This document shows positions 6,494-18,960 of a stretch of DNA of 32,171 nt, one piece after another; the first letter of the stretch is position 1; the number at the start of each line of letters is the position of its first letter. Where the stretch lies: the IMG/VR virus record IMGVR_UViG_3300025168_000358, positions 1 through 32,171 of that record, one strand, 5' to 3'. This stretch comes from a virus. Made by a program: the position numbers and the translations under genes. The notes under the pieces are model-generated. The model was not told the DNA's origin. It ran no database searches and worked only from the letters and a program-made list of their open reading frames with translations.

Positions 6494-7193
6494 TTAGTTG
6501 CTCCTTAGTAAATCCTTGAAATAGAGTAAGAGACTCTGACTTCTTCTCTGTGTCCATCATTCCAGATATTTTCATTAACGTATTTAAAGCTGATAGCTTA
6601 TCCCTATCCGTAGAGCCTTGTTTGTCTATTATACTTCTCATTTCTTCTAATAGATATAAAGGCGTAATTTCTGCTTCATTTAAAACTTTGTCTATTTCTT
6701 CTCTAATCAAATTCTTCACCCTGTCTGTTTTAAGCAAAAGTTTTGCTTGAGATGCAGCGTATGATTCTTTCTTACTAGGAAAAGCGTTCATATACGCATC
6801 TACAACATCATCTCCCTTTGCTACATACTTTGCAAATAGAAATTCTTTTTCTGTTGCTTTAGTTCTTTCTTTTTTACGTACTGAGGGAGATTTGCCGTCT
6901 TTTGCAAACGTGTGCATATTAGTACGCATCTCTCCCGTCATAGTAACTTTAGGACTACAAACGAAAGAACCTATTATAGTTCTTATAAATGTAGTCTCTT
7001 TTTTTCTATTAGGACTTTTTAATATACCAACATGCAATACTTGGCAAACTTGGCCATCATCTGATGCAATCCAATCATCTACAGAAGCGTGCCTCCAATC
7101 TTCACAAATATCAATTGAAGGGTGGTATTCTTTAAATTCAAGTATATTATCAAATAAGTACTTAGTTTCACCATTTATTGTTCTGGTCTTCAT
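6432..7193 (-). CDS. terS: Terminase small subunit
   Basis: A 253-residue protein. Residues about 114-170 look like the helix-turn-helix DNA-binding part of terminase small subunits: 'EKEFLFAKYVAKGDDVVDAY' followed by a short loop, 'AKLLLKTDRVKNLI' and a long helix. In the family this part recognises the packaging site and the remainder forms the oligomer ring. The position one to two genes before terL agrees. The first 85 residues are a separate beta-rich region (with DDWIASDDGQVCQVLHVG) that I do not know from standard small subunits. The C-terminal 50 residues are charged and probably contact TerL. Confidence 0.75.
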   Translation of the reverse strand: MKTRTINGETKYLFDNILEFKEYHPSIDICEDWRHASVDDWIASDDGQVCQVLHVGILKSPNRKKETTFIRTIIGSFVCSPKVTMTGEMRTNMHTFAKDGKSPSVRKKERTKATEKEFLFAKYVAKGDDVVDAYMNAFPSKKESYAASQAKLLLKTDRVKNLIREEIDKVLNEAEITPLYLLEEMRSIIDKQGSTDRDKLSALNTLMKISGMMDTEKKSESLTLFQGFTKEQLNAIQGPEVKKLQEVKSNSEK

Positions 7194-11545: not shown

Positions 11546-12634
11546 ATGTGTGGAATATATGGAATAGCCAAATCTCCGACACCTTATACTGCAAGTCAGT
11601 ATAAAGATGTTAGACGCATTCTGAGAGATATTGCAATAGACTCTGAGTCTAGAGGCAGTCACTCGTCTGGAATAGCATCAGTCGGAAATGGAACTACAAT
11701 ACATAAATCCCTACTTGAGTCTTCAAAGTTTGTAGACACTAAACAATATAGTTCTGTCGTTAAATCGTTAAAGACAGATACTAATATTGTATTAGGACAT
11801 ACAAGGTTTGCGACACAAGGTGCAATTACCGTCAAGAATGCTCACCCATTTAAGGTTGGCAACGTCGTCGGAGCACACAATGGTTGCGTCTATAACGTAG
11901 AACAAATGGAAAAGAAACTAGACAAAGTTTGTCCAGTAGATAGCCAGTTGATTTTTAAGTCTATAGACAGGTCAAATACATTAGAAGAAGCCGTCGAACA
12001 TTTCGATAGCGACTTTGCTTTGTGTTTCGTCAAAGACAACTATAATGTCTTACATCTATGTAGAGAGACAAACAGACCTCTACACGTCGCATATGTTCCT
12101 GAACTTAAAACCCTATTCTTTGCGTCTGAAAATGACTTCTTAGAAGATTCATTATGGATTAACGGGGAATACGAACCTAAAGTCTATCAATTAAATAAAA
12201 ATACATTGTATAGCTTTGACGTAAATAAGTTTGAGGATACAGCAAATGCAACTAAGACGGAGTTTAAGTATGAAAGCAGGGTTTACACTTATAATGTAAA
12301 TAAATATCCAGTTAAACATACTATAACGACTGCCAATATTGATAATACATACCTTGATAACGACGCTATTTTAGCAGACTTTTCAGGAATGGAATTTGAT
12401 GATGATGGTTTGCCGTCTAAAGAGTGGTACGAAAGAGAACAAGAAGAGCTTTCGTCTATATATGGTGGCTACGCTTGTAACTGGTATTTTGACGACGTTG
12501 AAATGTCTTGGTACTATTTAACAGACGACAATAGACATATGTCTGAAGATGAAATGGCGAACGACTTTTTTCAAAGTCCACACGCACCAGACTCAGAAGA
12601 CATAATACTAAAAGATAACGAGGACGTAGTGTGA
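11546..12634 (+). CDS. Class-II glutamine amidotransferase domain protein
   Basis: A 362-residue protein. The Met is followed at once by Cys2 (MCGIYGIA), the N-terminal nucleophile of Ntn-type amidotransferases that release ammonia from glutamine. Other family motifs follow in order: ESRGSHSSGIA (34-44), GHTRFATQG (84-92), NAHPF (98-102), AHNGCVYN (110-117, Asn112 and Gly113 for the oxyanion hole) and DSQLIF (132-137). The last 130 residues are acidic, without a sugar-isomerase or synthetase domain, so it must pass ammonia to, or act beside, another protein. It overlaps the amidoligase gene by four bases (GTGA), which implies coupled translation and a joint role. The ribosome binding site is AAAGGA. 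Confidence 0.9.
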   Translation: MCGIYGIAKSPTPYTASQYKDVRRILRDIAIDSESRGSHSSGIASVGNGTTIHKSLLESSKFVDTKQYSSVVKSLKTDTNIVLGHTRFATQGAITVKNAHPFKVGNVVGAHNGCVYNVEQMEKKLDKVCPVDSQLIFKSIDRSNTLEEAVEHFDSDFALCFVKDNYNVLHLCRETNRPLHVAYVPELKTLFFASENDFLEDSLWINGEYEPKVYQLNKNTLYSFDVNKFEDTANATKTEFKYESRVYTYNVNKYPVKHTITTANIDNTYLDNDAILADFSGMEFDDDGLPSKEWYEREQEELSSIYGGYACNWYFDDVEMSWYYLTDDNRHMSEDEMANDFFQSPHAPDSEDIILKDNEDVV

Positions 12635-14487
12635 CTAGGGTAACAATAAGAACTATAGACAATCACGAGGTAGAAAGAGATGAAATACTCTACGACTCTT
12701 GTGGTGGTTGTAGTATGGAAATTACTCCAGACGTCGAATCAGTAGAGAATCAACAAGGGGATACATATTGTAATGGTTGTTACGACGATTATTACTTTAT
12801 TTGTCGCCATTGTGAAGAAGAGTCGCATATGGACGACGTAACTACTATACACAGCGAAGACATCTGTGTTTCGTGTAGAGACAGTTATTACGACACTTGT
12901 CCAGAATGTGACGACTGGTGCTTTGTAGACGATATGCATTATTCGGATAACACAGACTGCGACGTATGTGAGTCTTGTTACGACTATAATGAAGAAAGCG
13001 ACTACAATTCTTCAGACTCTGTGTCTTGGAGTGTAATGAATAATGATTACGTAGCAACAAATACAGACTTCGAGAATCCTAAAGACTCTGGTTATAATAT
13101 GACAGAGACTGGAAACGTAAGGAAGAATATGTTTGATGTGACTTACTCTGAAAGAACAGACTTTAAAGATTCTTTTAGTATGATTAAGTCTAGACGATAT
13201 CAAGGAGTTGAAATAGAATTTAATACTTTCAACGACGTTGATAGAGGCGAATTATTTCAATACTTACACGGAGATATACTTATGTCTAGAACTAATAGGT
13301 TTAGACGAAGCGATTGGTCAGACTATATGAAAAGAATGCTTAACGTAGTTTACGACGGCTCTGTTACTGGTGGAGAACACTCGTACGGGTCGGAAGTTGT
13401 TATGTTCCCTCGCAGGGGTGACGTCTTAATAAAAGACATAGACGTTATAAATAAAGCAATTAAGAAAATGGACGGATACATTAGCCATAAGTGTGGCTAC
13501 CATTTACATATAGACGTAAGAGATTACGACTGGTATCATTTTGCAGTCTTAATAGCTATGACTAAGTTAGTAGAGCCTCATATATTTCGTTGGATGCCGT
13601 CTAGCCGTAGAACGTCTAGGTGGTGTCAACCAGTTACTCAAAACTGGTCTGAGTTTTCAGACATTGGAAGTAGAGAATCTCTAGTCGATTTCTATTACGA
13701 CGGAGACAATTATAGAGACGAAAAATATCACGACAAAAGATATTCAGGTCTTAACTTGCACTCTCACTTTCAAGGTAGACAAGGCGTAGAAATGCGATAT
13801 CATTCTGGTACTTTAAATACCGACAAGATGAAGCATTGGTCTATACTTTGGAGTCAGATTGTAGACAAGTCTTATGAAATAGGTAATGAACTACACGATA
13901 AATATGCTGTATATGGAAGCGACGGAACAGATGATTGGTTTGCAAATACTCCATTCATTAAGTCGTTACAAAACGTAGTCTCAGATGAACTAAAGACCGA
14001 TATATTAAATATAATATCAGTCAATGGAACAAAGAGAGATAGAGTCAACGACATTAAACTAAAACTATCTAGAGATATAAGACGTGAGTTAGGTATAGAC
14101 ATAGAACAGAATCTTCCATATATGGAACTTGACTTAGACAGACTATCTTCATTAGTCGGGATACGTAGTCCTATGGGAATTTACAATAGTCCTACAATGA
14201 CTATGGACAATATGTTCAAAGTCTTTGACTTGCCTAATACGACTAGAGAGTTTTACAGAAATTGGTGTAAGACTAGAGAAAGTTCTTCTTCTTATGACCC
14301 TAACCACGTAGAAAAATGCTACGGCAAGACTACGAGGTTTGTAGAATATCATAAGTTCAGTAACGACTTTAGTACGAAGTCTATGATAGAACATAGACTG
14401 CCTAGAGTAAATAGTCTAAGTAGTATATATCAAGACCTTAGATATAGACTAGAGCCTAGACTTATAAGTGAGTATATTAATGTCTAA
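12631..14487 (+). CDS. Zinc-cluster amidoligase (putative COOH-NH2 ligase)
   Basis: A 618-residue protein starting at GTG. Residues 1-120 carry 14 Cys, including CxxC pairs at 24/27, 47/50, 58/61, 79/82, 90/93 and 110/113, consistent with three LIM- or ribbon-like zinc modules. From about 190 the sequence shows the signature of phage amidoligases (Amidoligase_2, a glutamine-synthetase-like fold): GVEIEFN (192-198), YDGSV with SEVV (241-257), CGYHLHIDVRD (288-298), and VEMRYHSGTLN (386-396). The Glu and His residues would bind Mg-ATP. The family is predicted to join a carboxyl to an amine by an acyl-phosphate; substrate unknown. The remaining 200 residues are helical and probably specific to this protein. 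It is coupled to the amidotransferase. Confidence 0.8.
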   Translation: MTRVTIRTIDNHEVERDEILYDSCGGCSMEITPDVESVENQQGDTYCNGCYDDYYFICRHCEEESHMDDVTTIHSEDICVSCRDSYYDTCPECDDWCFVDDMHYSDNTDCDVCESCYDYNEESDYNSSDSVSWSVMNNDYVATNTDFENPKDSGYNMTETGNVRKNMFDVTYSERTDFKDSFSMIKSRRYQGVEIEFNTFNDVDRGELFQYLHGDILMSRTNRFRRSDWSDYMKRMLNVVYDGSVTGGEHSYGSEVVMFPRRGDVLIKDIDVINKAIKKMDGYISHKCGYHLHIDVRDYDWYHFAVLIAMTKLVEPHIFRWMPSSRRTSRWCQPVTQNWSEFSDIGSRESLVDFYYDGDNYRDEKYHDKRYSGLNLHSHFQGRQGVEMRYHSGTLNTDKMKHWSILWSQIVDKSYEIGNELHDKYAVYGSDGTDDWFANTPFIKSLQNVVSDELKTDILNIISVNGTKRDRVNDIKLKLSRDIRRELGIDIEQNLPYMELDLDRLSSLVGIRSPMGIYNSPTMTMDNMFKVFDLPNTTREFYRNWCKTRESSSSYDPNHVEKCYGKTTRFVEYHKFSNDFSTKSMIEHRLPRVNSLSSIYQDLRYRLEPRLISEYINV

Positions 14488-14497
14488 TAGTATGAAA

Positions 14498-14585
14498 GAA
14501 CGTAGGCTATACGCCACTAGTCTACGTTCAACTACTACGACGCGATTATTAAAAGTCCACCTGTGATAGCGTTCTACTTTTTTTT
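14498..14585 (+). terminator. Probable terminator region after the amidoligase
   Basis: GAACGTAG (14498-14505) pairs perfectly with CTACGTTC (14522-14529). A second fold pairs GAAC and GCTAT (14506-14510) with ATAGC (14566-14570) and GTTC, which ends just before a run of eight T (14578-14585). The two folds exclude each other. The T-run and position between two transcription units argue for termination, although the pairing next to the T-run is broken by a bulge. Confidence 0.5.
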
Positions 14586-14641
14586 ATATATATATATACT
14601 AGCTAGATAGCTAGAGATAGAAAAAAAATATAAAATAACTA

Positions 14642-14670
14642 TTGACTATTAAATTTATTATAACTATTAT
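14642..14670 (+). promoter_or_regulatory. Strong sigma70-like promoter for the 14838 operon
   Basis: TTGACT (14642-14647) and TATTAT (14665-14670) are exactly 17 bases apart. The 15 bases AAAATAACTATTGAC (14632-14646) are shared with the promoter at 8874-8888. The expected start is near 14677, at the beginning of the structured leader. Confidence 0.75.
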
Positions 14671-14676
14671 AGAAAC

Positions 14677-14837
14677 AGATATGACGGACAGATATAAATA
14701 TAAACAATTAACGACTGGGAATAGGCAGTCGTCGGCAACCAATCCGACACTCGTTACCCCCATAATTGTAAATATGTTAGGTTGGCAAACCTCTGTCCGT
14801 CGTAAAAAATTAAATAACATAACCTTGGGAGGTTAAA
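14677..14837 (+). ncRNA. Structured, riboswitch-like leader RNA
   Basis: The leader begins right where the promoter at 14642 should start transcription. GACGGACAG (14683-14691) pairs perfectly with CTGTCCGTC (14793-14801), closing a domain of about 120 bases. Inside, CGACTG (14712-14717) pairs with CAGTCG (14726-14731) over an eight-base loop, and TCGG (14732-14735) with CCGA (14744-14747) stacks beside it. The loop bases CAACC (14736-14740) can pair with GGTTG (14780-14784) as a pseudoknot. After the domain, AACCT (14821-14825) and AGGTT (14830-14834) form a hairpin holding the Shine-Dalgarno GGGAGG of the next gene. Aptamer plus sequestered binding site is the layout of a translational riboswitch. 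I do not recognise a known class. Confidence 0.65.
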
Positions 14838-15167
14838 ATGAGTAAGAAGTATAAAGTAAGAGTAAGTATTCCAGTAGAGTATGACATTTCAGACTTAATG
14901 ACTAGTTTTGATACTACTATAGATGTAGAAGCAGATAACTATGAAAAAGCAGTCAGTATAGCTAAGACGGAGTTTAATGATAACTACGACTTAGATTCTA
15001 TATACGACGAAATCTACGAAGCAGTCAAAACTAATATGTTGGTGTGGTTAGACGGAGATTATGAGTGTGACACTTATGACGACGACTACTACTTTGCAGA
15101 AGAACAACAACCTAGACCTTTTCCAGGAATGGAAGGCAAGGGAATAGACGGAGGCAGTAATGAGTAA
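14838..15167 (+). CDS. Acidic protein under leader control, unknown
   Basis: A 109-residue, very acidic protein rich in Tyr and Asp. The N-terminus has a beta strand (KYKVRVSIPVEYD), a second strand ending VEADNYEKAV and a helix, an arrangement seen in small DpnD/PcfM-like proteins, but that resemblance is weak. The C-terminus is disordered (EEQQPRPFPGMEGKG). GGGAGG, caught in a hairpin, is its ribosome binding site. It is the first gene of an operon with GroES, and it overlaps the next gene by eight bases. Confidence 0.65.
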   Translation: MSKKYKVRVSIPVEYDISDLMTSFDTTIDVEADNYEKAVSIAKTEFNDNYDLDSIYDEIYEAVKTNMLVWLDGDYECDTYDDDYYFAEEQQPRPFPGMEGKGIDGGSNE

Positions 15168-17943: not shown

Positions 17944-18497
17944 GTAATGTTAATGAAATGTTATCAGAGATAGATAACAACGTAGCCTATTACAATCCAA
18001 CTGAGGATACTACTGGCAATAAATATGAGCCAATTCCAGAGGGAACGTATGAAGCTAACGTAAGCAAACTAACTACAAAGAAAGATATTGTTGTTAAGAA
18101 TTCGTATATTTGCGACATTTTTGAAGCTACATACGCTATAGACGACGACAATTATCCTAAATTAAAGAACAGAGAAATTAAGTCTAAAGGTTATTTTAGA
18201 TTTAAGAAACCTGACAAAAACACGCACCCTGGACTTGAGGACAATCAAGGTAATAATAAGGGTTATATGATTTTTGCAGAAGCTTCTGGATATGAAATGC
18301 AGAAAGATGATACTGGGAAATATTTACTTCCCTACTTGATGGAATCTGATATATCTGGAAATCCTGTTACTGTGAAAGTAGTTCACGACAAATGGACTGG
18401 TAGCGACGGAGATAAGAGAGTAACTCCATTAGCAGTTAATGTGTTTAAGTCTAAAGATAGAGTTAAGAAAACACAAGTAACCGAGTTGCCATTCTAG
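17940..18497 (+). CDS. Probable single-stranded DNA-binding protein
   Basis: A 185-residue protein with a beta-rich core (about 30-165) of OB-fold type, similar in layout to DUF669/SSB-like phage proteins: IPEGTYEANVSKL, then repeated strand-loop units with Tyr and Phe residues. The extreme C-terminus TELPF resembles the acidic, Pro-Phe tip by which SSBs recruit partners. It lies directly after the annealing protein (ATGA overlap). I infer SSB from context and from the tail; an identity check is needed by profile search. Confidence 0.65.
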   Translation: MSNVNEMLSEIDNNVAYYNPTEDTTGNKYEPIPEGTYEANVSKLTTKKDIVVKNSYICDIFEATYAIDDDNYPKLKNREIKSKGYFRFKKPDKNTHPGLEDNQGNNKGYMIFAEASGYEMQKDDTGKYLLPYLMESDISGNPVTVKVVHDKWTGSDGDKRVTPLAVNVFKSKDRVKKTQVTELPF

Positions 18498-18730
18498 TGG
18501 AATATTCATTCAAGTTAACGGAGGAGCAAGCAATGTCTTTAATAGAGGTAATTGAGCAGCATAGATGTGAAGGCGAAGAAGAACTATGTTCTAACGTAAG
18601 AACATCTATTAAAACTCAGTTTAAGTCTCAGTTTAAAGAAAACGAGGAAGGGATTACCTTAGAGGTAGATAATATATTAGAATCTGCTAAAAAGACTCTC
18701 GGACCAGGATACTGCGACAACTGCGACTAA
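18497..18730 (+). CDS. Small protein with terminal CxxC, unknown
   Basis: A 77-residue acidic protein starting at GTG 18497, which overlaps the upstream stop by one base. It is helical, with a Cys-containing end (CDNCD). Only the terminal CxxC could bind metal. It lies between SSB-like and other small genes. No family recognised. Confidence 0.5.
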   Translation: MEYSFKLTEEQAMSLIEVIEQHRCEGEEELCSNVRTSIKTQFKSQFKENEEGITLEVDNILESAKKTLGPGYCDNCD

Positions 18731-18960
18731 TGGACATTTCTAAGTGGAATCGAATAATGAAGTCTTTTCAAGACTTGATGGGTTACGAAGAAGGAACTCG
18801 AGAAGTCGTTATTATGAAAAGACTTTCTTTCGGTATAAAAAAGGGAGTTGAAGAGATTGATGCACGGGAAGAAAGGGTTTTCGTGCATCTTCTTAGAAAA
18901 ACATATAGGGAGATAGCTAGTGATAAGAAGTCAAGAGAGGATAGTAAAAGACAATCTTAA
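18730..18960 (+). CDS. Small basic helical protein, unknown
   Basis: A 76-residue protein with alternating Lys/Arg and Glu in its second half, helical, ending SREDSKRQS. The ATG overlaps the previous stop by one base. No Cys and no membrane segment. It could be a DNA-associated accessory protein. No family recognised. Confidence 0.5.
   Translation: MDISKWNRIMKSFQDLMGYEEGTREVVIMKRLSFGIKKGVEEIDAREERVFVHLLRKTYREIASDKKSREDSKRQS

Follow-up and report, generated by a model that had tools for sequence, protein, structure and literature searches.

A structured RNA family found ahead of and between the genes of uncultured phages

The DNA analysed here, referred to as the window, is an uncultured-virus record of 32,171 bases, in which 350 bases separate an amidoligase gene (618 aa, 12631-14487) from the 109-aa gene on its 3' side (14838..15167, plus strand), which belongs to no family. 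Within this gap we found a structured RNA element of 119 bases (14683..14801, plus strand) that is the long form of an element carried by ~70 uncultured phage records. Comparison of aligned relatives shows that the leader in the window is a real RNA structure maintained by selection, and what appears to be new about it is the RNA family and not a mechanism. Our preferred reading, held tentatively and at a little under even probability, is that the element is a phage RNA of a new class, carried by a clade of uncultured tailed phages and acting within the replication-gene transcript as a module in its own right, not as the switch of one gene.

Fold, covariation and minimal form of the element

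Modeling of the family predicts a three-way junction with three parts: a closing helix of variable sequence (P1), a long arm whose P2 bears the hairpins P3 and P4, and the short P6 hairpin. All parts lie on the plus strand of the window. P1 pairs GACGGACAG at 14683..14691 with CTGTCCGTC at 14793..14801, the nine-base-pair closing helix that an earlier sequence-only reading of this DNA had described; its coordinates proved exact, and a helix of this strength occurred in 0 of 300 dinucleotide shuffles of 14677-14837. The same region has a folding energy of -48.7 kcal/mol, compared with -29.9 +/- 3.6 for dinucleotide shuffles (z -5.2). Two inner hairpins had also been proposed, and the alignment supports both with their register shifted by one base: P3 occupies 14713..14730 (14713-14717 with 14726-14730, the loop ending in AGG) and P4 occupies 14731..14748 (14731-14735 with 14744-14748, around the 8-base loop CAACCAAT). 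The minimum-energy fold of the window contains P4 and lacks P3; the family alignment backs both.

The present analysis added P2 and P6 to this picture, and it showed the element to be independent of any particular gene and of the leader position. The 5' strand of P2 (14698..14710, ATAT and CAATTA) pairs with 14763..14775, which contains a conserved GCAAATAC-like strand identified from the alignment and a motif scan (GTAAATA, 14768-14774). P6 (14780..14791, GGTTGGCAAACC) presents a conserved UGGC loop, and the hairpin adjoins a conserved GCAAAUAC-like strand.

Related phage contigs were collected with four queries: the 109-aa protein, the product of the second gene, the helicase and the amidoligase. 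Covariance models built in three steps (R1, R2 and R3) brought in many further members, and two pattern scans of a viral collection widened the family. The window element is recognized by all three models and belongs to the 40-row alignment, with an R3 score of 99.6 bits (E 1.4e-21). In 900 kb of loci from the second pattern, R3 returned 22 matches at E 1, and those read by eye sit on the pattern. Most short forms escape R3, as do some distant members (L057 is one), so that absence of an R3 match is on its own weak proof of absence.

Covariation was assessed in an alignment of 40 members (A7). Because the rows had been fitted to the structure, the following percentages of paired cells are inflated: 99.4% for P1, with two-sided changes at 9 of 9 pairs; 98.5% for P3, at 5 of 5; 99.0% for P4, at 4 of 5; and 93.9% for P6, at 3 of 3. 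P2 was weaker, with 74% of cells paired in its outer part and about 88% in its inner part, and by eye it is rebuilt from other letters in L113 and L138. The covariation score was 0.707, compared with 0.211 for shuffled alignments and at most 0.071 when the partners were slid. Complementarity of P1 in unrelated letters is visible in the raw sequences before any alignment; L003, L007 and L009 have the same layout 5' of the 109-aa gene and a P1 that is wholly different yet complementary (GTGGTGGATA/TATCCACCAC). Across P1, P3, P4 and P6, G-U pairs (80) far outnumber A-C cells (6), and therefore the plus strand is the one that acts as structured RNA.

The sequence-only reading had named homologues with covarying pairs as the test of its structure, and 40 aligned relatives now provide them: across P1 and the two inner hairpins, 18 of 19 pairs show two-sided changes and 98.5-99.4% of cells are paired. 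Its broader argument, that several pairings within 160 bases indicate selected structure, is sustained for P1, P3 and P4, which covary, and not for a loop pseudoknot and a Shine-Dalgarno hairpin that it had counted among them.

Three kinds of short form, only 58-62 bases long, help to delimit the parts that matter (L041-type, L024/L026-type and L036/L037-type leaders). These are without P3 and P4, and each has kept a perfect or compensated P1, an arm, and P6 with a UGGC or UGG loop. The essential core therefore consists of these parts together with, in some members, the GCAAAUAC-like strand. The P3-P4 arm has been lost in some lineages. Two other types of sequence were noted during the searches. 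Five loci (L226, L232, L236, L258 and L293) contain a simpler candidate variant that reads GCAAATAC, TTGGTTGGC and then TACTAAAAC...TTAGTC, and in L319 (~position 7000, minus strand) the closing helix reads 29 bp.

Promoter, loop and ribosome-site signals near the leader

A sigma-70-like promoter (TTGACT-17-TATTAT, 14642..14670, plus strand, 10/12 match) ends 12 bases 5' of P1. For the strong promoter claimed directly ahead of the structure, the TTGAC[AT]-17 spacing recurs 5' of the leaders in L008, L017, L019, L051, L043 and L045, but matches of this grade are not rare, with a mean of 1.4 per region in shuffles of the AT-rich DNA found here. At intergenic copies of the element, no promoter was found above the level of shuffles. 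Further 5' of the promoter in the window lie a 12-bp inverted repeat (GAACGTAGGCTA/TAGTCTACGTTC, 14498-14529), which possibly marks the end of the amidoligase operon, and tandem TAGCTAGA repeats in very AT-rich DNA (14600-14615). In L017 both arms of the inverted repeat have changed with pairing kept (GAACACAGACTA/TAGTCTGTGTTC), and GCTAGATAGCTAGA-like repeats stand 5' of the leaders in L016, L017, L020, L023 and L024.

Proposed loop pairing between CAACC (14736-14740) and GGTTG (14780-14784) is perfectly complementary in the window. With loops assigned manually in 15 members, pairings of this type within members were no better than permuted ones and had no covariation support, and the complement is missing in L247, L265 and L028; the family does not bear out this pseudoknot. 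This pairing of the P4 loop with UUGG and a second candidate pseudoknot, which joins the P3 loop AAGG to CCUU behind P4, were both complementary above the level of shuffled loops and were rejected for showing no covariation. Loop pseudoknots in this family may be real but invariant, or may not be real.

The hidden ribosome site also failed to generalize. The hairpin holding the Shine-Dalgarno sequence (14821..14834, plus strand, AACCTTGGGAGGTT) is peculiar to the window, being broken in the close relative L010 and absent elsewhere. In nearly all members, no more than ~40 bases separate the end of the 3' strand of P1 from a start codon; the distance to the ATG is 7-12 bases in many members that are without a Shine-Dalgarno sequence and roughly 15-37 bases where one is present. 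The idea that the structure substitutes for a Shine-Dalgarno sequence was considered and set aside, as many genes of the same phages are without one anyway.

Genomic setting and distribution of the family

In close relatives of the window the element is a leader, and in other phages it occupies the space from one gene to the next, where P1 starts at or just 3' of the preceding stop codon. Wherever it was read, it lies on the coding strand of its neighbors. The 77 downstream proteins fall into 27 families with no shared theme or pathway, including GroES, cytosine and adenine methyltransferases (named by sequence motifs) and many small unknowns. GroES was rejected as a common partner, being the next gene for only a subset of elements. 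In the GroES kind of phage the element lies ~1 kb 3' of a helicase gene and in the window kind it lies 5' of DnaB, so it can stand on either side of the replicative helicase gene. A replication origin was likewise rejected, the element being away from both the minimum and the maximum of GC skew.

Several features of the neighborhood were recorded alongside. Just 5' of the leader in the window, a glutamine amidotransferase-like gene adjoins the amidoligase gene (11546-14487), and several related phages have an amidoligase relative at the same place. Five loci (L162, L164, L165, L174 and L191) share the same upstream gene and the element, which is followed in them by different genes, some methyltransferase-like and some coding for a small protein, as though a module border lay at the element. 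Directly 3' of the element, L057 (5577-5765) and L094 (723-905) have a terminator-like hairpin with a T-run that by eye is unlike what follows other members.

Running R3 on whole records gave one match in nearly every positive phage. The exceptions were L021 with two, G083 with a partial second match and the element at both contig ends, and G059 with a weak second match (E 0.09). A second site that is vacant in the window was found at 18497..18960 (plus strand), where the genes 18497-18730 and 18730-18960 share the single base 18730. Each of the 27 records in which these two genes overlap by one base has a leader copy, long or short (27/27). In L031, L033, L034 and L055 a gap of 143-155 bases that holds the element separates these genes, and no leader copy was found; L021 has both a leader copy and a junction copy, and in L028 and L029 the junction is occupied and the leader site falls off the contig. 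Where a junction copy of 141-155 bases is present and the leader site is on the contig, the leader copy is thus absent in 4 of 5 records (Fisher p 1.4e-4, a value that ignores shared descent and comes from a tally made by hand in which several records are near-identical). More distant relatives (L057, L094, L098, L088 and L087) have the element just 3' of the second of the two genes. The element has changed place among close relatives.

The sequence-only reading had recognized no known riboswitch or ribozyme class, and a covariance-model check agreed: with Rfam 15 (4227 families) at the gathering threshold, the window and 9 member loci gave 0 family matches, and relaxed E values for the window, L120 and L113 returned chance-level hits, none of them credible. 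One exact pattern scanned against ~85,000 species genomes of bacteria and archaea gave 5 matches, none within an element. In blastn searches of ~50,000 records of cultured phages nothing covered the element, and most hits to the window query fell in the AT-rich 5' part of the query; either search could miss diverged forms. In the literature, mostly open-access texts, we recognized no paper describing the element RNA. The large terminase of the window phage belongs to phrog_38 and is 26% identical to its nearest cultured counterpart. Homologous large terminases (31-81% identity) were found in 18 of 36 element-bearing records checked, and the other 18, several of them short, gave no terminase match.

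The pRNA of phi29 is also present once per genome and also folds as a three-way junction, in which a long closing helix meets a large arm and a short hairpin, and its AACC/GGUU loop complementarity resembles the element loops. Kissing loops are the defining feature of pRNA, whereas in the element loop complementarity comes without covariation; the element also differs in having no Rfam match, in its location among replication genes and in its phage having a phrog_38 large terminase. T-box leaders have, like the element, a conserved UGG-containing hairpin near the gene start, but the element matches no Rfam family, precedes no amino-acid genes and lacks a general terminator. GOLLD and ROOL RNAs occur in phages too. 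They are large, ornate structured RNAs of several hundred bases (PMC12286853), whereas the element measures 58 to about 150 bases. The manA and wcaG motifs come closest in setting; they are marine, phage-borne structured RNAs of unproven function in 5' untranslated regions, standing 5' of metabolic and photosynthesis genes (PMC2864571). The element is likewise structured and phage-borne, but it precedes unrelated small genes, GroES and methyltransferases, and it gave no match to the manA and wcaG models at the gathering threshold or at E up to 10.

Candidate functions of the element

We favor an independent module because place, neighboring genes and arm all change while P1 and P6 stay. The element would be transcribed with the replication-gene operon, either as a leader behind a promoter, as in the window, or as a spacer between genes, and it would then be recognized by a protein of the phage or of its host, or be released from the mRNA. 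Several points weigh against this reading. Both sites in the close relatives lie in one operon, so a cis effect on the whole transcript would survive the move; the end of P1 lies near the start codon (~40 bases), as it would for a cis regulator; the phage records may be fragments; and the single copy could reflect mere rarity. A dedicated small RNA, needed once per genome in its own right, with the replication machinery, the packaging machinery or a host factor as its partner, for example, is possible but doubtful; its gene would move between spacers and could shed the large arm.

An operon-level cis element, such as an antitermination, stability or RNase processing site in a long early transcript, seems unlikely, though it deserves weight. 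It would fit the placement of the element on the coding strand wherever read, the location of both sites of the close relatives in one operon, and long P1 stems such as the one of 29 bp in L319. The put RNA of phage HK022 and the RNase III sites of T7 would be analogues; sites of this kind are usually present in several copies in a genome and can do without conserved strands like GCAAAUAC. Terminator-like hairpins stand behind only two members, which also counts against this explanation.

The interpretation first offered for the window, a riboswitch-like leader, did not survive as stated, since the downstream genes are unrelated, the element is intergenic in many relatives and short forms are without P3-P4. 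In its general form, a riboswitch or other cis regulator would bind a ligand at the junction with GCAAAUAC and UGGC, tune P1 and thereby gate the start region. The conserved folded domain with covariation that a riboswitch calls for is present, as are a conserved unpaired core and a P1 close to start codons. By eye, the 5' strand of P3 (GGCAUU, GCACU) could also pair behind P4 (AAUGCU, AGUGC) in L134 (1627-1759), L135, L120, L147 and L202, and L057 and L094 supply terminator-like hairpins 3' of P1. However, these hairpins occur in only those two members, the ribosome-site hairpin and the expression platform in general are unconserved, the 27 downstream families have no common theme, and the large arm is absent from the short forms, making this explanation improbable.

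Two further explanations are very unlikely. Some known ribozymes are, like the element, compact, pseudoknot-prone and located between phage genes, but a self-cleaving ribozyme that separates the transcript is opposed by the lack of any Rfam ribozyme match, by the lack of any invariant site close to where P1 ends on its outer side and by short forms that lose most of the RNA. A single-stranded DNA structure for priming or replication would suit an element found once per genome, near replication genes and in a kept orientation, but it sits poorly with promoter-like sites just 5' of several leader forms, with tolerance of G-U and not A-C, with the tight fit between stop and start codons, and with a position that is not at the GC-skew extremes.

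The retention of one copy of a structured RNA per genome throughout a phage clade points to a function worth finding. The covarying helices, the short forms that mark a minimal core, and the occupied and empty sites in close relatives should make that function directly testable.
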